64,000 bases of DNA, taken from positions 1-64,000 of the forward strand of contig JAHDHX010000004.1 of the NCBI GenBank assembly GCA_020631075.1, read 5' to 3'. The notes under the pieces are model-generated. The model searched no databases. It was given only the letters and a program-made list of their open reading frames with translations, and was not told where the DNA came from. Source of the DNA: Candidatus Altimarinota bacterium. GTDB taxonomy: Bacteria; Patescibacteriota; Gracilibacteria; UBA4473. Each line of letters starts with the position of its first letter. Position 1 is the stretch's first letter. The translations under genes and the position numbers were made by a program. Positions 32,810 through 56,367 of the stretch are shown here, piece by piece.

Positions 32810-33316
32810 ATGAGTTGGATGTGGTTGCTGTTGATCGGGGTGGGGGCGTTTGTGGTGTTTGCGGTGGTGCCGCTAGTGGCGCTAAAACACAGTGTGCCAC
32901 AACAGCGACAAGACCATGAAGCGTGGCAGCGGGGGCTGCTGGGGGAGTATGGGGCGGTGCTGCGCGAGTGTACGAACCTGAGCCAGCTGTCGCAGCGCTG
33001 GGGGCGGGGTGACAATGGGATAGTCAAAGATGAGCCGACGTGGATGTGTGATGAGGGGCTGATAGTCGGGAGTGAGATCGATGATGAGCGGGTGATCCTC
33101 ATCCCCTGGGGGGACCTGACCCACCGTGGGCAGCGGGTGCACAAGTGGCCGAGAATGGTAGAGATGGCTGATAATTTTGATTATCAAGCAAGAATGAGAA
33201 TGATGCCTGATGGGCAAGAGCACCTGCTGGAGATAGCGCGACGGAGTGGACGCGAGACCCTGCTGGTGGTGACGACCGACGCGGATGCGGAGCGGCTGCT
33301 GGCGCGGTTTGCTTAG
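32810..33316 (+). CDS. Hypothetical membrane-anchored protein, 168 aa
   Basis: One N-terminal transmembrane helix (LLLIGVGAFVVFAVVPLVAL) and a soluble domain, probably cytoplasmic, with ILIPWGDLTHRGQR and a C-terminal LLVVTTDADAERLLARFA. It resembles membrane-anchored PH-like or DUF proteins only in outline and is not recognised. It lies 31 bp after the CYRP pair and is likely in the same operon. Its TAG stop (33314-33316) is the first TAG of a palindromic element (33314-33506), so the present C-terminus may have been set by that element. Confidence 0.7.
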   Translation: MSWMWLLLIGVGAFVVFAVVPLVALKHSVPQQRQDHEAWQRGLLGEYGAVLRECTNLSQLSQRWGRGDNGIVKDEPTWMCDEGLIVGSEIDDERVILIPWGDLTHRGQRVHKWPRMVEMADNFDYQARMRMMPDGQEHLLEIARRSGRETLLVVTTDADAERLLARFA

Positions 33317-33506
33317 GCAGTGTTAACAGAACGGTGTCAATGAAGTGATAGATTGAAAAAAGAAGTCTCGAACAAAAATGAATCTTTTTCGCGAGGGGGC
33401 GCTTGAGAACTGCAAAAGGTACGAAGGTACCTTTTACAAACCTCGCACTACCCTCACAAAAAATCTCCTATTTTTGTTGCGAGACCGTTCATGTTAACAC
33501 TACCTA
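33314..33506. mobile_element. Palindromic ~190-bp element, copy A (MITE-like)
   Basis: Terminal inverted repeats: left TAGGCAGTGTTAACAGAACGG, right reading outward TAGGTAGTGTTAACATGAACGG. The interior has AATCTTTTT on the left arm and AAAATCTCCT on the right arm, as in the other copies, and a central perfect stem AAAAGGTAC-GAAG-GTACCTTTT. No ORF inside. It starts at the stop codon of the 32810 ORF. Confidence 0.8.
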
Positions 33507-33585
33507 GAATTAGGAAGTGATAGAACTTGTGCTGTGATATGCTTTTGGGTATTTACAGGGTGAAAAATTTATAACTCTGTAAAAA

Positions 33586-35472
33586 ATGCGTGTGGGTGTC
33601 GACAAGACGGCGATCGATATTAACCCCGAAGAGATGGCGGGGGTGGGGTTTATGGGGTATGGGGCGCCTGAGAATTACCTGCACCCTGAGGCAAAGCACG
33701 AGACGCCGTATGTGCGGACGATTGCCATGGAAGACGAGGCGGGGGGGCGGCACCTGTGGGTGAACATAGAAGCGCAGGGGCCCGGGAACATCGTGCGGAT
33801 GAAGCTGTGGCACCTGCTGAATGAGGGACTGGAGCCGAGTGACCCTGCGTACATTCACCATGAGCAGCTGACGGTCATTGCCAACCATACGCACTCGATG
33901 CTGGGGGGGGACCGTGAGCACAGTATATATAACGCGACGGTGCCTGGGTACCAGCCGCGGGTAGCGGACCTGTATGCGCGGACGATGGCGGAGTCTGTCC
34001 GTAAGGCGCTGGGGAAGCTGCAACCTGGGGTAGTGCAATGGGAAAGAGCGTATTTTAATGATGATGCAAAAGACGAACGGGTGAGTAAGCCAACGGCTGA
34101 CACGGGGGGGAATCGATCAATTTTGGCTTACCTTGCTGCTGAGGGGTTGGACATAGACAGTCACTGGGTGATCCGTCAAAAAAGGATGCAAGATGCGGGG
34201 AACTATAAACGGCATGCGGTGGAACTGATGGTGGTGAAAGATCTGAAGCATGAAATACTCGGGATGATGAACTGGATCGATGTGCATGCAACGAGTGTCA
34301 GGAACACGAACCAAGCGATAGACACGGACAACAAAGGTGAGCTGAGCCGTATGGCGGAAGAAGACCACGGCCTGGCGGCGGTGGTGGCCAGCAACCCCGG
34401 GATGGGGACAGGTGATGTGTCGCCGAACAGAGCCCAGACAACGGGGCTTATATCTTATCACCCTGACTGGGAAAGAGGGATGTTTGAAAAGGATGACTTT
34501 AAGAGCAAAAGACGGAATGCGAGGGAGCAACTGGAAACTCTATACCACGGACTGAAACAATTGAAGTATAAAAATGTAGATGAGGGAAAGATAAAGCAAC
34601 GGAGTGTGACGGTGCGGATGGATGGTCTGTGGGTGCGGCCAGAGTACCGACTGACGACGGCGGATGGGCGGTATGTGTATGAAGGGGAGCGGGTAAGTGG
34701 GCCAGCGCTGGGGCGGGCATTCACCGATGGGACGCCCGTGGACGGGCGTGGGGAGCCGCTGGCGGGGAAGGCGCTGGTGATGCTGAGCCATCTGACGGGG
34801 GTGGACAAGGACATGAAGGCCGAGCACGGGTCGAAACAGATAGTGGTAGACGGGCGCAACCAGCAACTGGCGGGGCTGCGGGCAAAAACGCTCAAAAATA
34901 CGCTGGGGGTACTGCTGAGTCCGACGCCTGATGAGCCGTATACGCATGATGTGGCGCGGGAGCTGGGGTATATGTCTTACTTTGGGGGACTGGAGGAGAC
35001 GGAATACCTCCCGCAGGAGGCGACGCTGCAACTGGTGCAAGTGGGGGAACAATATGTGCTGACGTTGCCTTTTGAGCTGACGACGCAGGCGGGGCGGGTG
35101 CTGCTGGAGCAAACAGCCAAGAAACTGGGGGTGGAGGATGACCGTGTGCTGATCGTCCCTTACGCCAATGGGTACAACGGGTATGTGACCACGCCGAGTG
35201 AGTACGAAGTGCAGCAGTATGAAGGTGGACACACGCTGTATGGGCCCAACACGCTGGGGGGGATATGCACAGTGATGGCTGGGTTGGTGGATCGTCTGCA
35301 AAATGATTTCTCACTGACGGGAGTAGCGAAAGACATTTCTGAGCCGAAGTATGCAGACCCGATGAAGTTAAAGAATTTTAATAATTCGCGGTATGTGCAG
35401 TCGTACTTACAACGGTGGGAGGCCAACAGAAAGTGGTGGCGGGAGCAGCGTGAAAAAAAAATGGGGGGATAG
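33586..35472 (+). CDS. Neutral/alkaline ceramidase family hydrolase
   Basis: 628 residues. Family motifs run in order: VGVDKTAIDI...GFMGYGAP at the N-terminus, ANHTHSMLGG (99-108, zinc-binding His), WIDVHATSVRNTN (second His), SNPGMGTGDVSPN (Ser nucleophile in GDVSPN, 276-281) and YANGYNGYVTTPSEYEVQQY...LYGPNTLGG. These enzymes hydrolyse the N-acyl bond of ceramide. No signal peptide is visible, unlike the usual secreted bacterial enzymes, so it may be cytoplasmic or exported by another route. A non-ceramide N-acyl lipid substrate is possible. It follows palindromic copy A by 80 bp; a CaCA exchanger follows downstream on the same strand. Confidence 0.9.
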   Translation: MRVGVDKTAIDINPEEMAGVGFMGYGAPENYLHPEAKHETPYVRTIAMEDEAGGRHLWVNIEAQGPGNIVRMKLWHLLNEGLEPSDPAYIHHEQLTVIANHTHSMLGGDREHSIYNATVPGYQPRVADLYARTMAESVRKALGKLQPGVVQWERAYFNDDAKDERVSKPTADTGGNRSILAYLAAEGLDIDSHWVIRQKRMQDAGNYKRHAVELMVVKDLKHEILGMMNWIDVHATSVRNTNQAIDTDNKGELSRMAEEDHGLAAVVASNPGMGTGDVSPNRAQTTGLISYHPDWERGMFEKDDFKSKRRNAREQLETLYHGLKQLKYKNVDEGKIKQRSVTVRMDGLWVRPEYRLTTADGRYVYEGERVSGPALGRAFTDGTPVDGRGEPLAGKALVMLSHLTGVDKDMKAEHGSKQIVVDGRNQQLAGLRAKTLKNTLGVLLSPTPDEPYTHDVARELGYMSYFGGLEETEYLPQEATLQLVQVGEQYVLTLPFELTTQAGRVLLEQTAKKLGVEDDRVLIVPYANGYNGYVTTPSEYEVQQYEGGHTLYGPNTLGGICTVMAGLVDRLQNDFSLTGVAKDISEPKYADPMKLKNFNNSRYVQSYLQRWEANRKWWREQREKKMGG

Positions 35473-35537
35473 TTTGGCGGAAGTGGCGGTAGGGGGAAAT
35501 AGGGTTTGCAAGGTGGGGGGGATGACTAGGGTGGCGG

Positions 35538-36473
35538 GTGATGACAATTCTCCTTCCGTTTTTGGTCTTTGCCGTGTGCACGGCGGTGCTGGTGAAGTCG
35601 GCTGATTATTTCATTGGGGCGATCGAGCGGATCGGCCTGTCGCTAGGGTTGCCTGAGTTTTTTACGGGGGTGCTGTTTGTCGCGCTGGGGACGAGCCTGC
35701 CTGAGCTGACGACGGGGCTGGCTTCTGTGTGGCAGGGGGAAGCGGACATGCTGACCGGGAATGTGCTGGGGTCAAATGTGGCCAACGTGCTGCTGGGGCT
35801 CGGGTTGGTGGTGTTTTTGTCTGGGAAGCGGATACACTACCAAAAAAATGTGTTTTCGGGGCATATACCGATCTTACTGATTGCCACGGCGTTGGCGACC
35901 TTTGCCATGCTGGACGGTCAGATAGTGCGGCCAGAAGGCTGCCTGCTGCTGGGGGTGCTGGGGTCGTATCTGTGGTTTTTGCATTCGGAGACGCCTGCGA
36001 TCAAGATGGTGGACGGGAAGCGTGAGTTTGACTGGAAGGACTTTGCGGTGGCGGGGGGAGCGCTGCTGGGGATCTTGGTGAGTTCGCATTTTTTGATAAC
36101 GAGTGTGATCACCCTGGCGGAGATGCTGAACCTGGCCAAGACGGCGCTGGCGGCGACGCTGGTGGCGCTGGGGACGAGCTTGCCCGAGATGGTGGTGGTG
36201 TATGCGGCGCTGAAAAACGGGAACCCTGACATTGCGATCGGGAATGTGCTGGGGTCGAATATTTTTAACATTGTGCTGATACTCGGGCTGGGGGCAGTGG
36301 TGGCGCCGTTGCCCGTGAGTGAGCTGAACCTGACGGTACTGTTGCCCTTCATGGTCGCGACGACGGTGCTGTACTGGGGGGTGAGTCAGACCCGCGAGGT
36401 GACGCGGCAGGAGGGGTTTTCGCTGACGATGTTTTATGTGTTGTTTTTGGCGGCGTTGTATAAGTTGTTTTAG
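35538..36473 (+). CDS. Calcium/sodium:proton antiporter, CaCA family (YrbG-like)
   Basis: 311 residues, about ten membrane segments. The two inverted alpha-repeats are clear: GTSLPELTTGLASVWQG with GNVLGSNVANVLLGLG in the first half, and GTSLPEMVVVYAALKNG with GNVLGSNIFNIVLILG in the second. These carry the ion-binding Glu and Asn residues. It exchanges Ca2+ (or another cation) for Na+ or H+ across the cytoplasmic membrane. It lies 65 bp after the ceramidase gene and may be co-transcribed. The start could be the first or second of two adjacent ATG codons (35538 or 35541). Confidence 0.93.
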   Translation: MMTILLPFLVFAVCTAVLVKSADYFIGAIERIGLSLGLPEFFTGVLFVALGTSLPELTTGLASVWQGEADMLTGNVLGSNVANVLLGLGLVVFLSGKRIHYQKNVFSGHIPILLIATALATFAMLDGQIVRPEGCLLLGVLGSYLWFLHSETPAIKMVDGKREFDWKDFAVAGGALLGILVSSHFLITSVITLAEMLNLAKTALAATLVALGTSLPEMVVVYAALKNGNPDIAIGNVLGSNIFNIVLILGLGAVVAPLPVSELNLTVLLPFMVATTVLYWGVSQTREVTRQEGFSLTMFYVLFLAALYKLF

Positions 36474-36479
36474 TCGGTA

Positions 36480-37625
36480 TTACAGGGTGAGATCTTGCAG
36501 CGCGGACTGAAGCGCGGTGATGTCGGCCAAGGTGCTGGTGTGCCCGAAGCTGAACCGTAGGCCGCGGTGGGTGGCCGTGTCAGGCAAGCCAAGCGCGGCC
36601 AGAGCGCGTGAGCCCTGGGCGGCGCCGCTGCTGCACGCGGGGCCAGTGGCGGCGCACACGCCACGGAGGTCGAGCTGGGTGGTAATGATCTGCCCCGTGG
36701 TGCGAGGCAGCACCCAGTGGGTGATGTGGCTGGGTGACTGGGGGGTGGCCCAGGGCGACGCGGGGACGCCGAGCTGGTCGCGCAGGTCACGTAGGGCGTG
36801 GGTGAGTTGCTGGTAGCGGGTGACCTCCTGCGGGCGGTGGGTGGTGAGCTCTGACAAGGCGAGGGCGAGCGTGCGGGCGCCGAGGAGACTCTGGGTGCCT
36901 GGGCGGAGGCCCCACTCGTGCGTGCTGGGGCCTAACGGTTTGAGGGGGGTGCCTGACTGCACGACGAGCACGCCACTGCCGCCAAGGCCGCCGAATTTCT
37001 CAGCGGAGAGGGCGATGATGTCGGCGGGCAGGGTGGCGTGGTCGACTGGCTGGCTGACGACGGCGGCACAGGGGTCGATGATGGTGACGGGGCGCTGCCC
37101 GACGGGGCCCAGGGCGGTGACGAGCTGGCAGAGATCCGCAACGGGCTGGGCGATGCTTGTCTCGGAGCAGAGGGATTCGCCGATGATGGCGTCAAAGGAC
37201 TGGAGGAAGTCGGGGGTGAGTGCCGAGAGCGCCCATTGGCCCGTGGGTGTGAGGGGGATGGGATGAGACTCTACCCGATGGTGAAGAGCGAGGTAGCTGA
37301 CGGCTGACCAAACGGCGGAGTGGCACAAGGGAGACACCAACAGTCGCCGGTGCTGGCCCGCGAGGGCGACGCCGACGATCGCCCGCCAGAGGGCCTCGGT
37401 GCCGCCGCTGGTGAAGATGACTTCGGCGGGGTGGGCACCGAGGAGGTCGGCCACGGTGCGGCGGGAGGTGTCCAACACGGAGCGGGCGGTCCGCCCAAGC
37501 GTGTGCGGGCTGGAAGGGTTGGCCGTGAGGGCGGGGTCAGCCAAATGCTCGGTGATGAGGTCGGCCACGGCGGGGCGCAGGGGGGTGGCGGCGGCGTGGT
37601 CGAGGTAGGTGACAGGGGAGGGCAT
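36480..37625 (-). CDS. Cysteine desulfurase (NifS/IscS-like), divergent
   Basis: 381 residues. Class V aminotransferase fold: YLDHAAATPL at the N-terminus, FTSGGTEALWRAI, Asp184 in TIIDPCAAV (pyridine N contact), PLP lysine K210 in SAEKFGGLGG, and Cys331 in ATGPACSSGAAQGSRAL, the loop that carries the persulfide. It would mobilise sulfur from cysteine for Fe-S clusters or tRNA thiolation. Several usual residues are changed: SGATExNN reads SGGTEALW, the His before the PLP Lys is Glu, and the EHxA motif reads CHSA. Ordinary activity is therefore likely but not certain. It is alone, with no IscU/SufU nearby, and converges on the exchanger gene 6 bp away. Confidence 0.85.
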   Translation of the reverse strand: MPSPVTYLDHAAATPLRPAVADLITEHLADPALTANPSSPHTLGRTARSVLDTSRRTVADLLGAHPAEVIFTSGGTEALWRAIVGVALAGQHRRLLVSPLCHSAVWSAVSYLALHHRVESHPIPLTPTGQWALSALTPDFLQSFDAIIGESLCSETSIAQPVADLCQLVTALGPVGQRPVTIIDPCAAVVSQPVDHATLPADIIALSAEKFGGLGGSGVLVVQSGTPLKPLGPSTHEWGLRPGTQSLLGARTLALALSELTTHRPQEVTRYQQLTHALRDLRDQLGVPASPWATPQSPSHITHWVLPRTTGQIITTQLDLRGVCAATGPACSSGAAQGSRALAALGLPDTATHRGLRFSFGHTSTLADITALQSALQDLTL

Positions 37626-37674
37626 GGGTCACGGTCAGTGATAGGGGGGCGGGGGGGGCTTGTAAAGCGGGGGG

Positions 37675-37820
37675 GCAGTCCCCTGCTCTGGGGTGAAAGA
37701 TAGGGGTGGAGAGTATGGACGAGTGGCTGGATGAAGAGGTTGGGTATTGGGCGAAGGCTTCAGCCAGTCAGAGTGGGGGGGGCGAATAAAGAGGAAAGGG
37801 AGTCCCCTGCTCTGGGGTGA
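37675..37820. repeat. Direct repeat of a short hairpin AGTCCCCTGCTCTGGGGTGA
   Basis: The 20-nt sequence occurs exactly at about 37677-37696 and 37801-37820. CCCC...GGGG gives a short stem. Related CAGTCCCCTxC segments occur elsewhere (e.g. 6797, 20920, 28690). Function unknown; it may be a small dispersed repeat or terminator-like motif. Confidence 0.5.
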
Positions 37821-37833
37821 TGGTTTCGGGGGG

Positions 37834-38022
37834 CTAGAGGCGGTTTTGGACGCGCTGGTAGACGACTTCTTGGACATCAAAGGTGGTGGTGTCACCCACG
37901 GGGGCAACCGGGGCAAAGGCCAGCGCGAGGCCGCTGCAAAAACAGAGGAGACAGAGGACAGGCCAGAAGTTGGCCACGTCGGGGGTGTGGCGGCGGGAGC
38001 GGGTAGAGCGGGAGAATTGCAT
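37834..38022 (-). CDS. Small single-pass membrane protein, 62 aa
   Basis: MQFSRSTRSRR basic start, one hydrophobic helix (FWPVLCLLCFCSGLALAFAP), then a short polar tail. It is positioned downstream of a minus-strand promoter (38290-38317) and a ~220-nt structured leader, which supports it being expressed. Not recognised. The overlapping 216-codon frame (37635-38285) is low-complexity and less likely. Confidence 0.5.
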   Translation of the reverse strand: MQFSRSTRSRRHTPDVANFWPVLCLLCFCSGLALAFAPVAPVGDTTTFDVQEVVYQRVQNRL

Positions 38023-38059
38023 GATGGGGATGGGTTAAGCAGAAAGTGTAGGTGAAAGG

Positions 38060-38283
38060 GAATGGGGTGCAGGGCCCCTGACGGCTGCGGTGTGAACGAA
38101 GCACAGCAGCGGTCAAGAACCGACCCGAGGGAGAGCGTCGCGCGTGAGCCACGGTGTCTTCGGGTGGCGCGACGGTGAGGAGGCGGAGGACTCTCAGCCT
38201 GCGTAAGGCGAGAGGGGGGCGACGACAGCGCTGCAATGAGCGCGGGGACAGGAGCTTCCTCAAACCTGTCCTGCGTCGCCTCC
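38060..38283 (-). ncRNA. Candidate structured RNA or long leader
   Basis: On the minus strand a promoter (TTGACC-N16-TATTCT) would start transcription at about 38283. The first transcribed ~220 nt are GC-rich and form consecutive hairpins: GGACAGG...CCTGTCC inside an outer GGCGACG...CGTCGCC-like stem, CTCTCGCCTT...AGGCTGAGAG, CGTCGCGCCAC...GTGG...GCGCGACG, CGGTTCTTGACCG and GCTGCTGTGC...GCAGC. It does not match RNase P, tmRNA, SRP or 6S consensus as far as I can see. It precedes the 62-aa ORF and could be its leader or an independent RNA. Confidence 0.5.
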
Positions 38284-38289
38284 ATTTCT

Positions 38290-38317
38290 AGAATATTTAG
38301 GAAAAACTTTAGGTCAA
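38290..38317 (-). promoter_or_regulatory. Sigma-70-like promoter for structured RNA/62-aa ORF
   Basis: On the minus strand TTGACC (plus 38312-38317), a 16-nt spacer, and TATTCT (plus 38290-38295). The predicted start falls on the GG of GGAGGCGACGCAGG. Confidence 0.6.
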
Positions 38318-38374
38318 TATTTTTCTTACTATTTGAGAGATGTGGGTAATAGAGGCTTGATTAACGTGAGGATC

Positions 38375-38569
38375 TAGGGAGTGTTCACAAATTGGAAAAA
38401 ACAGGTTGATCCTAAAGTCTAAGGAGTGATTTGAGTGAAAAAAGAATCTTTTTGGCTGCAAAATGGTTGCGTATTTTTGCCTTGATCCATCAAGGCTGCA
38501 AATACGCGCTCATTTTTCGCTCAAAAATCTCTCTTTTTTCTTCTCAAACCAATTTGTGAACACTCCCTA
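38375..38569. mobile_element. Palindromic ~195-bp element, copy B (MITE-like)
   Basis: Perfect 21-bp terminal inverted repeats TAGGGAGTGTTCACAAATTGG (38375-38395 and, inverted, 38549-38569), with TA at both outer ends. Interior: TTTGAGTGAAAAAAGA pairs with TCTTTTTTCTTCTCAAA. Shared boxes GAATCTTTTTGG and AAAATCTCTC are present, and the central stem is GCGTATTTTTGCCTTGAT / ATCAAGGCTGCAAATACGC. No ORF. About 95% identical to copy C. Confidence 0.88.
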
Positions 38570-38655
38570 AGCGGGAGGGAGCAAAGTGGGCATGTTATCT
38601 GGCTCTATGGGCTTAGCACAAAAAGGCGACGTGTCGTCGCCCAAGCGCATGCAAG

Positions 38656-38769
38656 TCAGGCCAGGGGGGCACTGGACGCCGCCGCAGGTGGGTTCATGAA
38701 GATGATGAGCACGACGGCAACGAGCAGGGCGCCGATGAGGAAACCGATGACGTGGTGGCGGGTGAGCAT
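38656..38769 (-). CDS. Small membrane peptide, 37 aa
   Basis: MLTRHHVIGFLIGALLVAVV... is a single hydrophobic helix with a short Pro/Ala/Ser tail ending in TGA. It follows the 38783 gene on the minus strand by 13 bp and may be co-transcribed with it. Similar short single-helix ORFs occur at 37834 and 39522. Evidence is hydrophobicity and context only. Confidence 0.45.
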   Translation of the reverse strand: MLTRHHVIGFLIGALLVAVVLIIFMNPPAAASSAPLA

Positions 38770-38782
38770 GGGGGGGGAGAAA

Positions 38783-39262
38783 TTACTCCGTGGTGGAGAG
38801 GTGCGCGGAGAGGTGGGGGCGGACGTAGGTCTGGTCGGCGTTAATATTGGCGTAGAAGATGGCCCGATCGGCGGGGCTGGCGGAGGCGATCTGGGATTCG
38901 AACTCCTCCACGGTGAGGGAGATGTACTCAAACGTGGCTTCGCGGTCGGCGGTGGCGGGGGTGAGCATGACTTCGATGTAGATGCGCTGACCAGTGGGCC
39001 AAGTGACCTGCAAGATGCAGTCGATGGTGCCGTATGTCTGGCCGAGGAGGCGACGGATGTAGTCTTGGTCACGGATGAGGTCGTAGCCGAGGGCGGAAAC
39101 CTGCACGCGGTCAACCCCGTGGGCGCGCACGAGAGTGCCTGTGTGGGGCATCTGGGCGACGGCGATCTTGCCGTGTTCTTCTATGACGTGTAAGGGAATG
39201 GTCAGAGCAGTGTCAGAGCAGATGTACTGGCCAGTGGAGTTACAGCTGCAGGGATTGGCCAT
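38783..39262 (-). CDS. Hypothetical protein, 159 aa
   Basis: Start taken at ATG 39262 (MANPCSCNSTGQYICSD); the open frame extends upstream into the palindromic element but is not expected to be used. The N-terminus has three closely spaced Cys. The rest is a soluble alpha/beta domain (VQVSALGYDLIRDQDYIRRL) with an acidic helical C-terminus. The translated hydrophobic alternation and its conventional codon use support it as a real gene. Not recognised. Palindromic copy C lies 72 bp upstream. Confidence 0.6.
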   Translation of the reverse strand: MANPCSCNSTGQYICSDTALTIPLHVIEEHGKIAVAQMPHTGTLVRAHGVDRVQVSALGYDLIRDQDYIRRLLGQTYGTIDCILQVTWPTGQRIYIEVMLTPATADREATFEYISLTVEEFESQIASASPADRAIFYANINADQTYVRPHLSAHLSTTE

Positions 39263-39333
39263 CCTGGCCCAACTGGTCGCAAATGGAGTCAGTCGAAAAC
39301 ACTGGTAGTCAAAAAAGGCGAGGCGCTGCCAGC

Positions 39334-39529
39334 TAGGGAGTGTTAACAAATTGGAAAAAACAGGTTGATCCTGAAATATAAGGAGAGATTTGAGTGAAAA
39401 AAGAATCTTTTTGGCTGCAAAATGGTTGCGCATTTTTGCCTTGATCCATCAAGGCTGCAAATACGCGCCCATTTTTCGCTCAAAAATCTCTCTTTTTTCT
39501 TCTCAAACCAATTTGCGAACACTACCCAA
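39334..39529. mobile_element. Palindromic ~195-bp element, copy C (MITE-like)
   Basis: Left end TAGGGAGTGTTAACAAATTGG, right end (inverted) TGGGTAGTGTTCGCAAATTGG; 17 of 21 positions match. The interior is almost identical to copy B, differing at about a dozen positions, several of them in paired positions of the stem. No ORF. Its right end supplies the stop codon of the short ORF at 39522-39596. Confidence 0.88.
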
Positions 39530-39596
39530 AATTAATGACGGCGAGGTAGAGCACGGGAATAGTCACAATCAACAGCAGAGAGCGGAGGTATTTCAT
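39522..39596 (-). CDS. Possible 24-aa membrane peptide
   Basis: MKYLRSLLLIVTIPVLYLAVIN, then FG and TAG. A single hydrophobic helix with a basic start. The stop codon (39522-39524) lies inside the terminal repeat of copy C. Too short for confidence; it could be a truncated signal sequence. Confidence 0.3.
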   Translation of the reverse strand: MKYLRSLLLIVTIPVLYLAVINFG

Positions 39597-39853
39597 GGTG
39601 GCGGTGGGGGGGGAGTGAATAGTGGGTCGTGGGGATAATAGAATACATAGATGAGAAGGGAAAGCGGCGGTCGAAGGAGGCGGGGGGATGACGCTGGTGG
39701 ACAGGGGAAATTCTTCTCATTTTTACACTTTATTTATTTATAAAAATATTATATAATAAAAACATAAATACATATTCACCCCCACATATATGGATTGGAT
39801 GAGTTTCTGATGTAGTGAAACAGCACACTGTCACGGTGCAGTAGAGCACAGAA

Positions 39854-39884
39854 AACCAAAGGTGAATATCACCTTTGGTTTTTG
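39854..39884. terminator. Perfect 12-bp hairpin with T-run
   Basis: AACCAAAGGTGA-ATA-TCACCTTTGGTT followed by TTTT, with AA on the other side, so it can work in both directions. No confident gene ends immediately before it. Confidence 0.7.
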
Positions 39885-39929
39885 GTAGAGAAGAAATGTA
39901 GAATAGGCGTGGTGTGTGGAGTGCACACA

Positions 39930-39957
39930 AAAAAAAGCCCGAGCAGGGGCTCGGGCT
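39930..39957 (-). terminator. Terminator of the 39987 gene
   Basis: AGCCCGAG-CAGGGG-CTCGGGCT (39936-39957), preceded on the + strand by a run of A that reads as a T-run on the minus strand. It lies 30 bp after the stop of the 39987-40520 gene. Confidence 0.88.
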
Positions 39958-39986
39958 AAGTGTATTGCACTCGGAATGCGGTAAGA

Positions 39987-40520
39987 CTAGGCTCTGTAGG
40001 GAGATTTCATATTTTGCATCATTTGGTCTCTGTCAGTGGCAATGGTCTCACACAGCTGGGTGAGGGGTTCCCAGTTTTGCTTTCGTGCTTGCTGAAAGGC
40101 GACGGCAATCTCGTCTTGGTAGTTGGCTTTTAGGTAGCTCAAACTCAGGCCACGTTTGGCTTCGTCAAAGGTAGCGAGTAGCGCTGGATTATTGGCTTCG
40201 AGGATGCGCAGGTCACCAAGCGAAAGGCTTTCTGTCACGCCATCAACTTTTGTTGATTCCACTAAAGCCTCTTGGTCTATCTCTTCATAGTGCTTATCAA
40301 ATAAGTCTTGAACAGATTGTCGGGTGTTTTGGGCGAAATATTTGACAACTTCGGCATCAGTGATGGTCTCTGGATTTAATGGCCATGTGTCAGGCATTGG
40401 ATTCTTAGCTGCTCCGCTCTTATCAAAAAAAGCTTTCATATTGGATAAGTCAGCAATTGAGTCAGGCCAGTTGCTCAAATTTTCAGGTGGATTTTCAGGT
40501 GGATTTTGCTTGGGTCTCAT
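39987..40520 (-). CDS. Hypothetical protein, 177 aa
   Basis: Soluble, helical, acidic. Begins MRPKQNPPENPPENLSNW with a duplicated NPPE. The remainder is helical (DAEVVKYFAQNTRQSVQDLF; YLKANYQDEIAVAFQQARKQ). Not recognised. It has its own terminator and an AT-rich upstream promoter-like region (TACTATATT on the minus strand), so it is a single-gene unit. Its helical, Gln/Ala/Asn-rich make-up resembles the other orphan proteins of the window without detectable alignment. Confidence 0.75.
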   Translation of the reverse strand: MRPKQNPPENPPENLSNWPDSIADLSNMKAFFDKSGAAKNPMPDTWPLNPETITDAEVVKYFAQNTRQSVQDLFDKHYEEIDQEALVESTKVDGVTESLSLGDLRILEANNPALLATFDEAKRGLSLSYLKANYQDEIAVAFQQARKQNWEPLTQLCETIATDRDQMMQNMKSPYRA

Positions 40521-40614
40521 GGGATAAAGTGGAGAGGAGAAATAAGATTAACAACTTGAATATAGTACTAAAACTCTTATTTGTCAAATTTTTTTATTAA
40601 TTTTAAATAATAAT

Positions 40615-40950
40615 TTAACGTGAAGGGCGGGGTCTTACGACTTTGTTTTCACCCAGCTCGGGGCGCATAGCTTCGAGGGATTCTTGCCAGTGGTTTCGCT
40701 CCGCCTGGGTGATGGGGGGCTGGGACGTGGGGCGGAGGTCGAGCGCGGGGCTGGGGGGGGAGGGTTGGAGCTGGTCCAGCCGAGTGGTGGAGAGGCCTGC
40801 GCTGTCGGCGGGCTTGGGGGCGCTGTATTTCGGGGCGAAGTGGTCTGGGTCGACGTGAACCTTGAAGGGGTTTTGGCAGGCGGTCAGCAGCACGCCCAGC
40901 AAGGGAACGAGGCACAGGGCGCGGGGGCGGCTAGCGGTGAAATTGGGCAT
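40615..40950 (-). CDS. Small lipoprotein
   Basis: 111 residues from ATG 40950 (MPNFTASRPRALCLVPLLGVLLTACQNPFK). The lipobox LLTAC gives a mature N-terminal Cys at residue 25. The mature part is Pro/Ser-rich and probably disordered, ending in a basic helical segment. The first 20 bp overlap the 3' end of mutL in another frame, so it is translationally close to mutL. Function unknown. Confidence 0.65.
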   Translation of the reverse strand: MPNFTASRPRALCLVPLLGVLLTACQNPFKVHVDPDHFAPKYSAPKPADSAGLSTTRLDQLQPSPPSPALDLRPTSQPPITQAERNHWQESLEAMRPELGENKVVRPRPSR

Positions 40951-48814: not shown

Positions 48815-48840
48815 AAATTGATCAGAGATTGTTTCTCTCA

Positions 48841-48873
48841 AAAAAAGTGGCCCTGAGAGGGGTCGCTTTTTTT
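48841..48873. terminator. Hairpin terminator after mscS
   Basis: AAAAAAGTGGCCCT-GAG-AGGGGTCGCTTTTTTT: an imperfect stem with A- and T-runs on either side. Confidence 0.65.
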
Positions 48874-48898
48874 GTCTGGGGGGATAGGGTGCGGGGTG

Positions 48899-50293
48899 AT
48901 GACAAATCTAAAACGTGGTGAGGAACTGACACTGGAAATAACCCAAGCGGCCTGGGGCGGCAAAGGGCTGGCGAAGCACGAGTCGGGGCGGGTGGTATTT
49001 GTGCCGGGGGCGTTGCCCGGGCAAACCGTGACGGCCAAGGTGACCCGCGTGAAAAAGCGCCACGCGGACGCGAAACTGCTGCGGGTGGAGGCGCGGGCGG
49101 ACTATGAAATAGAGACGAACTTTCAGGAGACGCCTGGGGGGCCTTACCTGCGGGTGCCGTATGCCACCCAGCTGGAGTGGAAGCAAACCCAAGTGACCGA
49201 GCTGCTGCGGCGGGTGGCGGGGGTGGACATTACGCCCGTGCTGCGCGCGGTGGTGCCCAGCCCGCAGATACACTTCGCGCGGAACAAGATGGAGTACTCC
49301 TTTGGCCCGAATGCCGCGGGGGGCCCAGCGCTGGGGTCGAAGGTGCGGGGGCAGTTTTGGTGTGTGGAGGGGCTGGCGAAGCCGTCGGGGATGTTTGACG
49401 AGCAGCTGGAAACCCTCTTGCCGGGGCTGCTGGAGCAGTGTCTGGGCGTGGCGCCGACGGTGTATGACCAACGCACCCACGAGGGGGTGTGGCGGCAGCT
49501 GGTGGTGCGGAAGTCATTTGCAAAAGATGAGCTGCTGGTGTGTGTGGTGACGTCTTCGCAGGGGGGGGAGCTGGCGCTGGGGCCGCTGGTGGAGTGGCTG
49601 CAAGCGGAACTGGGGCCACGGCTGGCGGGGGTGCTGCACCAAGTGTCAGACGATGTGTCGGATTCGGCCAGTAAGTACACCAGTCGCGACACTCTGTGGG
49701 GGCGTGACACGCTGGTGGAGGCGATCAACGGGCTAGAATTTCAGCTATCGGTGGACTCCTTTTTTCAAACGAACCCGTTGGCGGCGGAGCGCCTGTATGA
49801 ACAGGTGGTGCGGTTGGCGGGGATCCCCGCGGGGGGGCTGGGCCTTGACCTCTGCTGTGGGACGGGCACTATTGCCCAGCTGTTGGCGGCGGGGCAGCCC
49901 GACGCCAGGGTGATAGGCGTGGAGATAGTGCCCAGTGCGGTGCAAGACGCCGAGGCCAACGCCCAGCGCAATGGCCTGACCAACGTGGAGTTTGCCGTGG
50001 GGGACGTGCGGCCGTGGCTGAAAAATTTTCTGGACGGGGGCGATGACCGCCCCACCGTGGACGTCGTGACGCTCGACCCGCCGCGGTCGGGGGTGTCGCC
50101 GAAGGTGCTGCGGCGGCTGATAGAGGTGGCGCCGCCGACGCTGGTGTATGTGAGCTGTAACCCAGGGAGTCTGGCGGCGGACCTGCAACAATTGCTGGAA
50201 AGTGGGTACCGACTGACGGACTTCGTGCTGGTGGACCAGTTTCCGCACACGCACCATGTGGAGTGTGTGGCGCGGTTGGAACTTAGTCCCTGA
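48899..50293 (+). CDS. TrmA/RlmC/RlmD-family RNA 5-methyluridine methyltransferase
   Basis: 464 residues from ATG 48899 (MTNLKRGEELTLEITQ). N-terminal TRAM domain (GGKGLAKHESGRVVFVPGALPGQ), central domain, and C-terminal SAM methyltransferase with FFQTNP, LDLCCGTGTIAQLLA, LDPPRSGVSPKVL and the catalytic Cys in YVSCNPGSLAADL. It methylates uridine C5 in rRNA or tRNA. The Cys cluster that binds 4Fe-4S in E. coli RlmD is missing after the TRAM domain: the sequence reads ETPGGPYLRVPYATQLEWKQ where CxxCGGCxxQH is expected. It therefore resembles Fe-S-less TrmA/RlmC-like members. The target RNA is unknown. Confidence 0.9.
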   Translation: MTNLKRGEELTLEITQAAWGGKGLAKHESGRVVFVPGALPGQTVTAKVTRVKKRHADAKLLRVEARADYEIETNFQETPGGPYLRVPYATQLEWKQTQVTELLRRVAGVDITPVLRAVVPSPQIHFARNKMEYSFGPNAAGGPALGSKVRGQFWCVEGLAKPSGMFDEQLETLLPGLLEQCLGVAPTVYDQRTHEGVWRQLVVRKSFAKDELLVCVVTSSQGGELALGPLVEWLQAELGPRLAGVLHQVSDDVSDSASKYTSRDTLWGRDTLVEAINGLEFQLSVDSFFQTNPLAAERLYEQVVRLAGIPAGGLGLDLCCGTGTIAQLLAAGQPDARVIGVEIVPSAVQDAEANAQRNGLTNVEFAVGDVRPWLKNFLDGGDDRPTVDVVTLDPPRSGVSPKVLRRLIEVAPPTLVYVSCNPGSLAADLQQLLESGYRLTDFVLVDQFPHTHHVECVARLELSP

Positions 50294-50362
50294 GAATTTT
50301 GCCAGTGAACTGAGAAGCTGCTAGGGTGGTCTAGTTTGCTATATTCTCGCCCCTAGTCAACC

Positions 50363-51124
50363 ATGAATGAGAACGGTCAAAATGCGCCAGAGAGGGCTGC
50401 CTGCGCCCCGACGGAGTTGCTGTATCTGGCGGACACGGGCCGCACACAGGCCAGTGCGACGGTGGTGGCCCTCGTGACTGACCCGCACCGTGGCGTGGGC
50501 GTAGTGCTGGACCAGACGGTGTTTTACCCGCAGGGGGGTGGGCAGCCCGCTGACCATGGGGTGATGACCACGGCCGCGGGAGAGAAGTACGCCGTGGGGG
50601 ATGTGCGCCTGCACCCTGACGGCACTGTACACCACTATGGCCAGGGGACGCTGGCCGTCGGTGACCAAGTGACGTTGCAGATAGACGCGGCGCGGCGGGC
50701 GCTGCACGCACGGTTGCATTCGGCGGGGCACCTGGTGGACATTGCCGTGCGGCGGGTGGGGCTGGCGGAGGTGCTGACCCCGACGAAGGGGTATCACTTC
50801 CCTGAGGGGCCGTATGTGGAGTTTGCGGGGACGCTGCCCGATGCAAGCAGCTGGGCTAAGCGGATCGAACAGGCGCTGGGGGAACTGGTCACGGAGGGTG
50901 GGGCGATCATCGCGCGGGAGCTGACCCACGAGGAGGCCGCCGAAAAAGGGGTAGTAGCACCACCCGGCAAGACGGTGCGTTGGGTGGAATTTATGGGGTA
51001 TGAAGCTGACGGCTGTGGCTGCGGGGGGACCCACGTGGCGGACATATCCGACATCGGGCCCGTGGTGGTGCGGCAGGTGAAAAGCAAAAAGGGGGTGACG
51101 AAGGTGAAGTATGGGCTGGGGTGA
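50363..51124 (+). CDS. Alanyl-tRNA editing protein, AlaX type
   Basis: 253 residues. Begins with an AlaRS-like N-terminal domain (YPQGGGQPADHG) followed by the editing domain with HSAGHLVDIAV (HxxxH zinc motif) and CGCGGTHVADISDIG (CxxxH half of the zinc site). It hydrolyses mischarged Ser-tRNA(Ala) or Gly-tRNA(Ala) as a free-standing AlaX. Natural TGA stop after YGLG supports the standard code. About 70 bp after the RNA methyltransferase on the same strand; a TATATT upstream (about 50339-50344) may be its own -10. Confidence 0.95.
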   Translation: MNENGQNAPERAACAPTELLYLADTGRTQASATVVALVTDPHRGVGVVLDQTVFYPQGGGQPADHGVMTTAAGEKYAVGDVRLHPDGTVHHYGQGTLAVGDQVTLQIDAARRALHARLHSAGHLVDIAVRRVGLAEVLTPTKGYHFPEGPYVEFAGTLPDASSWAKRIEQALGELVTEGGAIIARELTHEEAAEKGVVAPPGKTVRWVEFMGYEADGCGCGGTHVADISDIGPVVVRQVKSKKGVTKVKYGLG

Positions 51125-51195
51125 GGAGAGGAGCGATTTCCCACGCCCATGAACTTATCTGTACTGATGAGGATAAACGTGCAAAGAAGAGAAGC

Positions 51196-52473
51196 CTAGA
51201 AGGCGTCGTAGTCGTATGAGGGCTGGTCTACGTAGACATTTTTGCCGTCGAACATGATCTGGACCACTTGCCGGGAAATGTACAAGCGCTGGGTGTTGAC
51301 TTGGGGGAGTAGACTGTCTGGTGCTGCCTCTTGCCCGAGGAGGGCCAAGCCGCCGTTGCGCAGGGCGGTCTGGGTGGGGCCAAAAAGGGAGTGGTCCATG
51401 GCGGAATCCGTGTTGGTGTCGTTGTAACCAGTGTAGGGAATGAAGGCTTTGATCTGGTCTTCAAACTCCTTGATGGTGGCGTTTACACTGCGGGCAAAGT
51501 GTTCCTTAAACGGGGCAGAAGGACTCCAGAGAATGCCGTCGGTGCCTTCGAGGTCGCGAGGCATGACCGAGTGAGCGGCTGTATCTGCATTGGGGGCGAT
51601 GACGTGGCGTAGTCGGAGTGGGGTCTGGGTGGCGCCAAAGATGCGGCCGCGGCCAATGCCCTGTAGTCCGTACCAGCCATGAGGGGGTCTGGTCAGCGTG
51701 CGGGTGATGCGTTCGGCGAACTCTTTAACTTCGTAGGTGAAGAGTTTTTGGTCGTTGCCGAGCATGGGGAGCTTGTCGCTGTGGCCCATTTCAAATGAGT
51801 AGGCCACCGCTGGGTCGAGGAGGCCGAGATCTCTGATCTTGGCATGATAGGCCAGAACCTTCCTGACGACTTCAGGGTGGTGCTGGGGGGTGTTTAGATA
51901 CGCATCATAAGCCAAATTGTCAGAGGAATATGATTGTGAAAAATTTTGGCCGCGGACGTCAACCATAATGTGCTGATCGTCATTGGGGTTTTCGGTGAGG
52001 GTGATGTGGGTGCCGTTGATCAGACGAGAAATACTGATCTGGAAATCGTCGAGTGACAGGGGCTGACCGAAGTATTCTTCGTAGCGAGGGAGGTTCTCAA
52101 TCACTTGCTGTTTGATCCCTTCAAGAGCATTAGACACCTTGGGCGTAGCACCGACGAAGTCGGTGAATGCAAAATTTTCTTTAATGGTGGGGAAAACATT
52201 GACCGCGTGGCGGCGAGTGAGAGGGTGCTCGACACGGATGACGGCATTGGGGGCGTCAAGGACTTCCCCTTCGGATTTAAACATATAGTCCATATTCCCC
52301 ATATGAGCGCCATGCTCATGCGGTTTGTAGGGATCATTAAAACCGAGAAGGATAAATGGTGGGGTGAAGTGGTAGTCAGGAGAGTTTTTTGGGTACTCTT
52401 TTTCCCATTCGTTCTTGATTTCCCCGACGGCGCCGCTGAATTTGGAACCGCTTTCAAATATATTATTTTTCAT
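51196..52473 (-). CDS. Hypothetical protein, 425 aa
   Basis: Not recognised. Soluble. Start chosen at ATG 52473 (MKNNIFESGSKFSGAVGEI) because a TATAAA lies 6 nt upstream on the minus strand; an ATG at 52506 would add 11 residues. It has mixed alpha/beta content with conserved-looking segments such as PPFILLGFNDPYKPHEHGAH, NAVIRVEHPLTRRHAVNVFP, and HGWYGLQGIGRGRIFGATQT. Several His residues in the first segment could bind metal, but no family is identifiable. The 3' part is GC-rich, the 5' part AT-richer. Single-gene unit. Confidence 0.75.
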   Translation of the reverse strand: MKNNIFESGSKFSGAVGEIKNEWEKEYPKNSPDYHFTPPFILLGFNDPYKPHEHGAHMGNMDYMFKSEGEVLDAPNAVIRVEHPLTRRHAVNVFPTIKENFAFTDFVGATPKVSNALEGIKQQVIENLPRYEEYFGQPLSLDDFQISISRLINGTHITLTENPNDDQHIMVDVRGQNFSQSYSSDNLAYDAYLNTPQHHPEVVRKVLAYHAKIRDLGLLDPAVAYSFEMGHSDKLPMLGNDQKLFTYEVKEFAERITRTLTRPPHGWYGLQGIGRGRIFGATQTPLRLRHVIAPNADTAAHSVMPRDLEGTDGILWSPSAPFKEHFARSVNATIKEFEDQIKAFIPYTGYNDTNTDSAMDHSLFGPTQTALRNGGLALLGQEAAPDSLLPQVNTQRLYISRQVVQIMFDGKNVYVDQPSYDYDAF

Positions 52474-52485
52474 GTCTTTTTTATA
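52474..52485 (-). promoter_or_regulatory. -10 box at a leaderless start (51196-52473 gene)
   Basis: TATAAA on the minus strand (plus 52480-52485) with 6 nt (AAAGAC) before ATG 52473. Confidence 0.5.
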
Positions 52486-52553
52486 CACATGAAAAATGAA
52501 AAACAAAGTTTTTTGCTACTTAAACTGAAAAGTGTGGAGACAAGAAGTGACGT

Positions 52554-53276
52554 CTAGTCACGCGGTTGGCTGTAGAAAACAGCTTTGAGATTCACGCTGA
52601 GGAGGCCGTCTTCGGCTTCGTCGAGGGTGATGCTTTCAATGTTGGTCACGGGGGGGAGGTTGCCTTCGAGGAAGGTGATGTCGGCGGGTTCGAGGACGCT
52701 GCGGGGGCCCTGCAGGGCGGCGAAGATGACGTCTGGGAGGCGGCCCTGCTGGAGGTAGTCAACCCAGAGCTTCAGGCTGGGGCGGTCGCAGGTGAGCGAC
52801 ATAGAAACGTCTGAGAGCTGGTAGGTCTTGCCCTCGACGGCGGTGGGGGGGCCTATCTGTAGTGAATTAAGCCGCATGCGGGCGTCACGCAGCTGGCCGT
52901 CGGTGTCGACGCCGTCGAGGTTTTCGAGCTGGTAGGCCATGAGCTCCAGCGCGCGGGCCAGGGCCATGGTGTCGATGGACGCGGGGAGGAGCTGGGACTC
53001 GCGGTTGACGAAGGACTGACTGCGGGAGTCGAACTCTTCGGTGATGGTGGCGAGCTCTTGTTCGAGGGCTTTGACGTCGGACTGGAGCTGCGGAATGGCG
53101 GCTGTCTGGCGGGTGGTCTGGGCGCGGAGGTCAACCCACTCCAGTCCGCGTGGCAGCAACCACAGCACGCCCCACAGGCCCACGATGACCAGCAGCACCA
53201 CCCACGGGAGGGGGTTGTGGCGCATCCGCTCGTAGCGGGAGGACTTGCGGCCGCTCTGGGGGAGGGAGGGGGTCAT
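52554..53276 (-). CDS. pilO: Type IV pilus assembly protein PilO-like
   Basis: 240 residues. Short basic cytoplasmic tail (RKSSRYERMR), one membrane helix (PWVVLLVIVGLWGVLWLLP), then a coiled coil (about 60-100) and a ferredoxin-like C-terminal domain. The overall plan matches PilO, which forms inner-membrane heterodimers with PilN that connect the pilus motor to the periplasmic parts. Its ATG overlaps the stop of the PilN-like gene (ATGA at 53273-53276), supporting translational coupling and partnership. Sequence identity is low, so the name rests on topology and context. Confidence 0.6.
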   Translation of the reverse strand: MTPSLPQSGRKSSRYERMRHNPLPWVVLLVIVGLWGVLWLLPRGLEWVDLRAQTTRQTAAIPQLQSDVKALEQELATITEEFDSRSQSFVNRESQLLPASIDTMALARALELMAYQLENLDGVDTDGQLRDARMRLNSLQIGPPTAVEGKTYQLSDVSMSLTCDRPSLKLWVDYLQQGRLPDVIFAALQGPRSVLEPADITFLEGNLPPVTNIESITLDEAEDGLLSVNLKAVFYSQPRD

Positions 53277-54448
53277 GGGCTGGGGGTGTCAGCGGAGGGC
53301 GGGCGTGGGGAGGGGCGGGGGCCTGGGGTGGGCTTGTCCGTCGTGGAGTCGGGTTTGAGGGCGCTGGCCTTAAACGTGTCGGTCAGCGTGTCGGTGACGG
53401 CCTGCTCGAGCAGCTGCCCGCCGCGCTGGAGGTTGGCGCCGACCTGCTGCAATGCGCCACCGAGTGAGCGTGTGCCCGCCGTAGGAGCGGACGTGCCCAC
53501 GGGGCGGCCCGTGGGCAATGTGCCCTGAGTGCGGACGTGCCAGTCACTGTAGAGTGCGAACTTGGCGTCGTGGGTGTCGGGGAGGCCGCCGAGGGTGGAG
53601 TCACGCTGGATGGCGAGTTGGAGATTAAAGCCCATGGTGTCCTCGCCACTGGGGGCGGAGCTGCGGCTGAAGTTGCTGAGGGAGCCGTCACGCAGGAAGT
53701 CGTAGGAGTTCATCATCTCGGTGAATTCGCTGGCGAGGAAGAAGACCTTGCCGTAGAGGTTGGTGGCCTGGACGGAGAGACTCATGCCCGAACGGTCGAC
53801 CGAGAGGCCCGAGAGGTCGATGGTGTTATTGGCTAAAATCTGGTGCTCGTATTCTACGGAGTTGAAGTAGTGCATCATGCGGTCGGGGGCGTCGAGCAGG
53901 CCGATGACGGCCTGGCCCTGGGTGTCAACCCCGTCAAACCAAGTCCACTGGTTGCTGATGGCTTCGTCTATAATGTGCTGGTATTCGGTGTATTTCTCGG
54001 CGTCGATGTTGCCGGTGAGTTCGTTTTTTTGCTGTTGGTACTTATCAGCCAAGGTGGCGAGCTCGCTGTGGGTGGCGAGGACGGACTGGCTCTGGACGCG
54101 GAGGTTTTGCACGCCTGCGAGCTGGGCGATGACGCGGTTGTCGGGGTCGAGGTCGACCGCCAGCCACGCTGACCCCAGCCCGACAACGAGGGTGAGGGTG
54201 ATGGCGGAGTACTTCAGCGCGTAGAACCACCATGGGGCGGCGCCGCGCTTTTTCTTATAGGCGGCTTTTTCGGCTTGGTTGAGCTTCGTGCTGGCGAGCA
54301 TGGCCGCGGCGGGAGTGGCGAGAGTGCCCTTGTCTGCTTTAGCGGTCGTGTCGGTGGCGGAGCCCTGGGCGGGCGCAGCCGCGGTGCCACTGGGGGTAGT
54401 GCCCCAGACACGGCCATATAATTTCTCGAAGACGCTGGGGACTTTCAT
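53273..54448 (-). CDS. pilN: Type IV pilus assembly protein PilN-like
   Basis: 391 residues from ATG 54448 (MKVPSVFEKLYGRVWG). A long cytoplasmic N-terminal region rich in Ala/Thr/Gly, one membrane helix (YSAITLTLVVGLGSAWLAVD), a coiled coil, then a folded domain and a Pro/Ser/Thr-rich tail. PilN normally has a short cytoplasmic peptide binding PilM; here the tail is about 70 residues long. It is coupled to the PilO-like gene. PilM, PilQ and pilins are not in the window; pilB/pilC lie 25 kb away. Confidence 0.6.
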   Translation of the reverse strand: MKVPSVFEKLYGRVWGTTPSGTAAAPAQGSATDTTAKADKGTLATPAAAMLASTKLNQAEKAAYKKKRGAAPWWFYALKYSAITLTLVVGLGSAWLAVDLDPDNRVIAQLAGVQNLRVQSQSVLATHSELATLADKYQQQKNELTGNIDAEKYTEYQHIIDEAISNQWTWFDGVDTQGQAVIGLLDAPDRMMHYFNSVEYEHQILANNTIDLSGLSVDRSGMSLSVQATNLYGKVFFLASEFTEMMNSYDFLRDGSLSNFSRSSAPSGEDTMGFNLQLAIQRDSTLGGLPDTHDAKFALYSDWHVRTQGTLPTGRPVGTSAPTAGTRSLGGALQQVGANLQRGGQLLEQAVTDTLTDTFKASALKPDSTTDKPTPGPRPSPRPPSADTPSP

Positions 54449-54484
54449 CAGATGAGTATACCATGAAATGCGGGGCACGTACAA
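54449..54484 (-). promoter_or_regulatory. Promoter of the pilN-pilO unit, apparently leaderless
   Basis: On the minus strand TTGTAC (plus 54479-54484), an 18-nt spacer and TATACT (plus 54455-54460). ATG 54448 follows the -10 box by 6 nt. Confidence 0.7.
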
Positions 54485-54641
54485 GCGCGGCGACCGAAGA
54501 GAAACAGAGAAATTTCACACTGGGAAAGGTTGTCTTTACAAAGTGAGGTGGCGGGATAGCTTGGCCGTCGTGACTGGTTTTTTGCCAGCTTCTCTCCTCC
54601 TGTTACTCCTCCCACACTCCCCTCCTCCCCCCCTCTACCGA

Positions 54642-56189
54642 ATGACTACTGCTCTGAAAACTTGGTATGAAAATAGTCGGCCGTATTTCCGTGCGGATAT
54701 ATTAGCGGGGATCACGGTGGCCTTAGCGCTCATCCCTGAAGCGATTGCGTTTGCGTTTGTGGCGGGGGTGACTCCCCTGCTCTCACTCCAGACGGCGGTG
54801 ATGATCGGGTTGATTGCGGCGACCTTCACGGGGCGACCTGGGATGATCAGTGCGTCGACGGCGGCGATTTCCATTGTGGTGGCGCCGCTGATCGCCGCGC
54901 ATGGGTTGGAGTATTTGTTTGCCTGTGTGGTGCTGATGGGGGTGATTCAACTCCTGATCGGGGTGTTTCGGTTGGGGAAGTACACGACGCTCATCCCCCA
55001 CTCGGTGGTGCTGGGGTTCCTCAACGGGTTGGCGATCGTGATCTTCCTGGCGCAGTGGGACCAATTTCAGCTCACCCAAACTGTGCTGGTGGACGGCGTA
55101 GAGCAGACCGTCAAGCAGTGGCTGCCACTGTTTGATTTCGGGGTGATGTTGCTGGGGGTGGGCTTCACGATGGGGGTGATACACCTCGGGCCGAAATTAA
55201 CCAAACTGGTGCCTTCTTCGCTGCTGGCGATCGGGGTGATGACGGTGATCTCGATGCTGTTGTCGCACTTCGGGGTGTATGACTTCCGCACGGTGGCGGA
55301 CTTCGCGGGGGTGGCGCTGGTCGGGGAGCTGCCCAGTTGGCACCTGCCGCAGGTGCCGCTGACCCTTGAGACGCTGCGGATAGTCACGCCGTATGCGGTG
55401 ATAGGGGCGCTGGTGGGGCTGACCGAGGCGGCGCTGACCCTGCGGGTGCTGGACGAAATGACCCAGAGTAAGGGGCGGATGAATCGAGAGTTCTTGGCGC
55501 AGGGGTTGGCGAATTTCGTCAATGGGTTTTTCGGTGGGATGGGGGGTGACGCGATGATCGGTCAGTCGATCGTGAATGTGAACTCGGGCGGGCGGACGCG
55601 GATATCGGGGATAGTAGCGGCTTTAGCCTTGCTGGGCTTCCTGCTGTGGGCGGGGCCAGTGGTCAATGCGATCCCGCTGGCGGCGCTGGTGGGGTTGATG
55701 TTTATGGTGGTGATTTCGACTTTCAAGTGGGAGAGCCTGCGCTATGGCGGGCGGATACCGCGGAGTGAATACTTTGTGATCGGGCTGGTGACGGTGGTGA
55801 CGATCTTGGCTGACCTCGCGACGGCGGTGATCCTTGGCGTGGTGGTGTCGACGGTGATGTTTGCGTGGCGAAAGGGCAAAAGCGTGGAAGTGCGCACACA
55901 GCTGACCGCTGACGGCACCAAGGTGTATAAGGTCAATGGGTTGCTGTTTTTTGCTTCGACCCAGCACTTCGCTGAGCTGCTGACCGTCGAGGATGACCCG
56001 CAGGAGGTGGTGGTGGACCTGAAGTACGCGAAGGTGCTGGATATATCGGCGCTGAAGGTGCTCAACGATGTGGCGCGGCGGTACCGCGAGCGCGGCACGC
56101 ACCTGACCGTCACGCGCCCCGGGGAAAACTGCCGTCAGCTGATCGAAACAGCCGGGACGCTGATGGAGTTTGACATTAGGAAACACTGA
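54642..56189 (+). CDS. SulP family anion transporter with STAS domain
   Basis: 515 residues from ATG 54642 (MTTALKTWYENSRPYFRADI); the longer frame from 54468 crosses the pilN promoter and is unlikely. SulP core motifs: ADILAGITVALALIPEAIAF, GRPGMISASTAAISIVVAPL, FVNGFFGGMGGDAMIGQSIVN and about 12 membrane segments. The C-terminal STAS domain (about 410-510) ends ...TLMEFDIRKH. SulP proteins carry sulfate, bicarbonate or dicarboxylates; substrate is not predictable. The last codons and the TGA stop lie within palindromic copy D (56177-56367), so the C-terminus is set by that element. Confidence 0.93.
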   Translation: MTTALKTWYENSRPYFRADILAGITVALALIPEAIAFAFVAGVTPLLSLQTAVMIGLIAATFTGRPGMISASTAAISIVVAPLIAAHGLEYLFACVVLMGVIQLLIGVFRLGKYTTLIPHSVVLGFLNGLAIVIFLAQWDQFQLTQTVLVDGVEQTVKQWLPLFDFGVMLLGVGFTMGVIHLGPKLTKLVPSSLLAIGVMTVISMLLSHFGVYDFRTVADFAGVALVGELPSWHLPQVPLTLETLRIVTPYAVIGALVGLTEAALTLRVLDEMTQSKGRMNREFLAQGLANFVNGFFGGMGGDAMIGQSIVNVNSGGRTRISGIVAALALLGFLLWAGPVVNAIPLAALVGLMFMVVISTFKWESLRYGGRIPRSEYFVIGLVTVVTILADLATAVILGVVVSTVMFAWRKGKSVEVRTQLTADGTKVYKVNGLLFFASTQHFAELLTVEDDPQEVVVDLKYAKVLDISALKVLNDVARRYRERGTHLTVTRPGENCRQLIETAGTLMEFDIRKH

Positions 56190-56367
56190 TAAACTCAAAA
56201 GGAGGTGAAAACAATGGAGAAAGAGTCACCATCAAAAAAGAATCTTTGGGGTGCTTTTTCACTCCAGAACCGTCACGGGGTCTCTCGACCCCGTGAGAAC
56301 CTGTCGCAAAAAATCATCCCCAAATCTCTCTTTTTGTGATTGGCGAGACTTCATCAGTGTTTCCTTA
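56177..56367. mobile_element. Palindromic ~190-bp element, copy D (MITE-like)
   Basis: Inverted ends AGGAAACACTGAT (56178-56190 and, inverted, 56353-56365) with TA at each outer edge. Interior AAAAAAGAATCTTTGGGG on the left and CCCCAAATCTCTCTTTTTG on the right match the shared boxes, and TTTGGGG/CCCCAAA pair. The central stem is CACGGGGTC-TCTC-GACCCCGTG. No ORF. It spans the gap between convergent sulP and yebC and includes the sulP stop codon. Confidence 0.8.

Follow-up and report, generated by a model that had tools for sequence, protein, structure and literature searches.

The window analysed here, a 64,000-nucleotide stretch of contig C8 in a 1.46-Mb Gracilibacteria-class (CPR) assembly of 50 contigs, contains four elements of 190–196 bp in which the longest stop-free run is 47–61 codons. 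They comprise an A-type element of 193 bp at 33314..33506 (-), two B-type elements at 38375..38569 (-) and 39334..39529 (-), and a D-type element at 56177..56367 (-) with IS5-type ends TAAGGAAACACTGAT; in each case the minus strand is the one that folds in an RNA-like form. Consistent with an earlier note on this DNA, the coordinates match, TA-bounded inverted ends are seen in all four copies, and the two B-type copies (the second of which it called copy C, giving a similarity of about 95%) are identical at 185 of 195 positions. The two internal boxes that it described are present as well, with ATCT occurring exactly twice per window copy at those boxes, which represent the two sides of a single conserved tandem G.A internal loop. 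The 3′ and 5′ AGAU boxes, as read on the folded strand, lie at 33382..33385 (-) and 33463..33466 (-) in the A element, 38446..38449 (-) and 38527..38530 (-) in B copy 1, 39405..39408 (-) and 39486..39489 (-) in B copy 2, and 56242..56245 (-) and 56324..56327 (-) in the D element.

The ORF at 32810-33316, upstream of the A element, ends in a TAG stop (33314..33316, +) made of the TA target and the first base of the element. A sulfate permease (STAS-domain) ORF at 54468-56189 enters the D element by 12 bases and has its stop supplied by the element. The ten window ORFs scanned include no transposase, as had been stated. Two G-rich repeats of ~59 bp, 124 bp apart (GGGGGGGG...AGTCCCCTGCTCTGGGGTGA), are located at 37651-37833, and other homopolymer G runs occur near gene starts.

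Genome searches identified about 50 short, gene-less mobile elements in the host genome. Queries with copy C, A and D returned 24, 16 and 40 matches, respectively (totals that include some reverse-strand self-matches), so the further copies on which the earlier proposal depended do exist. These correspond to 21 full copies plus fragments of B/C-type, 10 copies of A-type, and about 18 full plus partial copies of D-type. What had been described as a single four-copy family is better divided into three subfamilies (A, B+C and D) with two end types and mutually unalignable stems, although all of them contain a common core. The elements are short, multi-copy and free of a transposase gene, and have terminal inverted repeats (TIRs) and target duplications (4 bp in D; TA in B, from a nested insertion), as in mini-transposons (MITEs).

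Element ends, target sites and transposases

D-type elements have the TIR GGAAACACTGATA and are flanked by exact 4-bp duplications in eight of 16 copies, compared with 1.0 expected and a count that none of 5000 shuffles reached; these duplications are TA-centred (TTAA, CTAG, TAAC, TAAA, TTTA, TTGA, and TATA). Related elements of Selenomonas show duplications in 15 of the 30 copies used for this test (2.8 expected; 34 copies are in the element list). The A/B-type ends (TAGGnAGTGTTnACA) are unlike those of D-type, and the duplicated target is TA. A B-type copy nested within a D-type copy (L019) reveals this directly: comparison of the D consensus, CCTGTCG-TA-AAAAATC, with the interrupted copy, CCTGTTG-TA-[element]-TA-AAAAATC, indicates that the empty site carries one TA, the arrangement that the earlier note suggested looking for. 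The elements are mobile, as demonstrated by near-identical copies (up to 97% mutual identity), the nested insertion, and clean duplications. Other families of the class have A/B-type ends as well, on MITEs whose interiors are unrelated, which indicates that ends and interior are separable; no transposase could be linked to these ends.

In Selenomonas sp. oral taxon 892, an autonomous element of 1.24 kb (L213:4788-6032) that encodes a 332-aa IS5-family transposase (NF033581, 1.5e-87) has ends matching those of D-type. Four IS5_4 elements, the strongest in the Gracilibacteria class, have ends of the form TTAAGGAnCnCTGA, similar to D-type, and a fifth shows a looser match (GGAACTCCTG). Judged by these sequence matches, the D-type ends are of IS5 type and the elements IS5-derived. 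No match to PF01609 or to IS5_4 (NF033581, transpos_IS5_4) was identified in the whole host assembly, and the ends of its one IS630-type (DDE_3) gene do not match, which speaks against that gene as the mobiliser. A full IS with the same ends, as sought by the earlier note, thus exists for D-type in Selenomonas, with similar ends among the IS5_4 elements of the class, but was not found in the host genome, where no transposase with these ends was detected in a 50-contig assembly that a collapsed copy could escape. An autonomous partner in the same genome is usual for MITEs and not strictly required. D-type elements would be moved by an IS5-type transposase absent from the host assembly.

Long TIR pairs in G014 were considered as IS and rejected, the ORFs between them being host genes. 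At L279-L281, L408 and L409 (G083, G197, G203, G115), frames resembling transposases contain numerous in-frame TGA codons, as would fit a lineage of the class in which TGA encodes an amino acid. At L203:5653-5812, in sequence that is partly N, a core-bearing MITE lies inside a Centipeda IS5-type copy (4809-6060).

The hairpin core and its folded strand

A-, B- and D-type elements have in common one hairpin core, a long helix with a conserved 5′-AGAU...AGAU-3′ tandem G.A internal loop. The core AGAUUU...AAAGAU (DNA AGATTT..AAAGAT, on the minus strand in window copies) is exact in 39 of 46 host-genome copies. RNA folding z-scores are -13.8 for A, -10.6 for B, and -8.7 for D, with none of 200 shuffles folding as well. 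The AGAU loop is also present in elements of G014, a genome of the same family (L127, L161), and of G001 (L278), and the core recurs within elements of ~160 bp in Selenomonas and Centipeda. Each of these genomes has 12 to >45 scored matches, with first-look candidates numbering up to 207, and similar elements in the distantly related Selenomonas amount to hundreds. The loop is invariant in all 33 Selenomonas copies aligned, whereas the flanking helices covary and 97.7% of cells are paired. Pairs changed on both sides number 12 in these 33 copies (5.3 when shuffled, at most 6 when slid), and the count of cells is 49 against 12.6. The covarying stems proposed earlier are therefore strongly evident as compensatory change, as expected of a structured RNA, in the Selenomonas relatives but weakly so in the host genome, where each subfamily has 0–3 compensated pairs.

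Many MITEs of the class bear long hairpins without this core. A kink-turn was rejected because in Selenomonas the tandem G.A loop is symmetric and lacks the 3-nt bulge. The elements have no Rfam match at E<=1, the window has none at the gathering threshold, and skipping-rope RNA, considered as a candidate, was likewise without an Rfam match. No relevant publication on MITEs of Gracilibacteria or Selenomonas emerged from our literature searches.

Consensus structures are more stable on the AGAU strand than on the opposite strand in all groups (B, -62.7/-57.4; A, -69.9/-53.6; D, -70.7/-51.9; Selenomonas, -77.7/-34.0). As structures of this kind are built in a way that favours G.U, G.U and A.C were counted on strand-symmetric helices from a fold excluding G.U pairs. 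Consensus mismatches included 13 G.U and 0 A.C, and polymorphic columns included 44 G.U and 27 A.C, giving a combined strand-neutral ratio of 57:27 (p=0.0014). The better folding of the AGAU strand together with the preference for G.U over A.C suggests that selection acts on the folding of one strand, probably in an RNA form. Core-bearing elements exceed core-less MITEs in strand asymmetry (p=0.011), and individual B copies show almost none. Folding with DNA parameters prefers the AGAU strand too, and single-stranded DNA could be the folded form since G.T and A.C also differ there; RNA is the simplest reading. The copies, TIRs, duplications, nested insertion and one-strand selection bear out the earlier view of a MITE-like element with a folded functional form.

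Seating at stop codons and orientation

Among 46 copies with flanks, 22 have the stop codon of a gene at the element edge, the target TA and the first element base making TAG or TAA. The expected share is 7.3%, that of stop-codon TAs among non-coding TA sites in the window, and the resulting p-value of 1e-13 is an order of magnitude only, as the null is simple and stops were defined after insertion. Selenomonas copies have the same seating. In both the host genome and Selenomonas, copies are oriented at random with respect to neighbouring genes, a result that speaks against a simple cis-acting 3′ UTR function and against a cis-acting terminator of fixed polarity. No promoter or terminator above chance was found within the elements.

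Orientation is biased relative to GC skew, used here as a proxy for replication direction in place of a mapped origin and terminus. In the host genome, 39 of 46 full copies have AGAU on the C-rich strand, and the ratio over all 49 places is 41:8 (p=2e-6). Contigs are internally consistent (10/10 on C5, 5/5 on C3, and 6/6 on C22), and the bias is present in both end types. Selenomonas copies show no such bias (38/67), which does not fit a general rule that the hairpin is counter-selected when on the lagging template.

Interpretation and comparison with known systems

We propose, with a probability of roughly 0.7, that these are non-autonomous MITEs moved by DDE transposases, with a conserved one-strand hairpin as cargo and near-silent insertion at stop codons. 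The transposases would act in trans by reading the inverted ends, which in D-type are IS5-type with 4-bp duplications centred on TA, and in A/B-type another end with TA duplicated. The cargo common to all would be the long hairpin with its tandem G.A (AGAU/AGAU) loop, selected for folding on one strand. With TAG or TAA rebuilt by the ends, insertion at a stop codon would be nearly silent, and the hairpin would join the 3′ end of the gene. Since no promoter is evident, the RNA would arise by read-through from neighbouring genes, and the hairpin may stabilise, process or terminate transcripts, or bind a protein.

The hairpin might instead function in single-stranded DNA form where the replication fork passes, by strand-specific insertion or tolerance of one orientation, with no RNA role. 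This would account for the AGAU strand being the C-rich (leading-template) strand; as the inverted ends are nearly symmetric and both end types are biased alike, the cue for the asymmetry most likely lies in the core, and DNA-parameter folding prefers the same strand. Such an account seems unlikely, though not negligible, given that Selenomonas combines the strongest strand asymmetry with no orientation bias, that B-type has the strongest bias but the weakest folding asymmetry, and that IS5-type transposition proceeds via double-stranded DNA. We also entertain, as doubtful, the idea that the AGAU/AGAU hairpin, as RNA or single-stranded DNA, is a module carried between phyla by unrelated ends, and that this module rather than the transposase fixes fork-relative orientation in the host genome.

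Bacterial MITEs are usually passive, and many in this class have long core-less hairpins, both of which favour an explanation by ordinary IS-derived MITEs with passive inverted repeats as interiors and common boxes inherited without function. It is quite improbable in view of the loop, invariant in 33/33 Selenomonas copies while its flanking helices covary, of a core that persists between phyla and with both end types where the remainder is unalignable, and of the one-strand preference for G.U over A.C. About half of the copies adjoin stop codons, as might a host-domesticated REP-like family of terminators or mRNA stabilisers that had lost mobility; copies up to 97% identical, the nested insertion and clean duplications all signify mobility, and orientation is unbiased relative to genes, making this very unlikely. 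The proposed mobile elements with a hairpin cargo can be compared with several described systems.

Like IS5-family MITEs (NF033581 element ends), the present elements have a D-type TIR, 4-bp TA-centred duplications, no notable ORF and many copies; they differ in their conserved strand-specific hairpin core, in the A/B-type ends, and in a host genome in which no partner transposase was found. QMITE2 of Coxiella burnetii, found for the most part in intergenic regions and 3′ UTRs and linked to small RNAs, is the closest described counterpart, being a MITE of 150-190 bp with ~50 copies, although its direct repeats are of 7-11 nt and its REP core is GTAG (PMC5896051), instead of the 2-/4-bp duplications and AGAU/AGAU core seen here. 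A 2024 survey reported ~250 “mobile/repeat sequence candidates,” including MRSC-65-2, which resembles the present elements in having one long covarying stem, dozens of copies in each genome, a distribution over several phyla, and a form that may be RNA or DNA (PMC11109978). Its stem contains a UYCCGG repeat, which is absent from the four window copies and the Selenomonas consensus; as MRSC-65-2 alone of the ~250 motifs was compared, the core may already be catalogued there without a name. Orientation that follows replication direction, as in the host genome, is known for Tn7 (TnsE), IS200/IS605 and others (review PMC5371812), whereas the present MITEs are near-symmetric with two end types, no single-stranded DNA transposase was seen, and the bias is absent in Selenomonas.

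Bacterial MITEs are generally viewed as passive leftovers, whereas the ends and interior here are separable modules, with an interior conserved across phyla and apparently selected for one-strand folding, and with insertion at stop codons that would be nearly harmless. The purpose of a MITE interior thereby becomes testable, as does the replication-following orientation of an element with near-identical ends, and Selenomonas, with many copies per genome, may provide laboratory hosts for such study.

Several further arrangements of these ends were observed. Class MITEs at L389 and L391 (G085), L372 and L385 (G086), and L386 (G218) have A/B-type ends around different long hairpins, and some contain CCTGAG..GACGAAGGGTG-like sequence. 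At L388:1496-1516 (G000:C3:about 133720-133741), a 20-odd-bp palindrome, AAGTAGTGTTAACACTACCTA, consists of two directly abutting A/B ends and is probably the remnant of an element after deletion. Two D-type elements (L056, L059) form a direct tandem at G000:C3:229988-230330 with a GTA junction in common.
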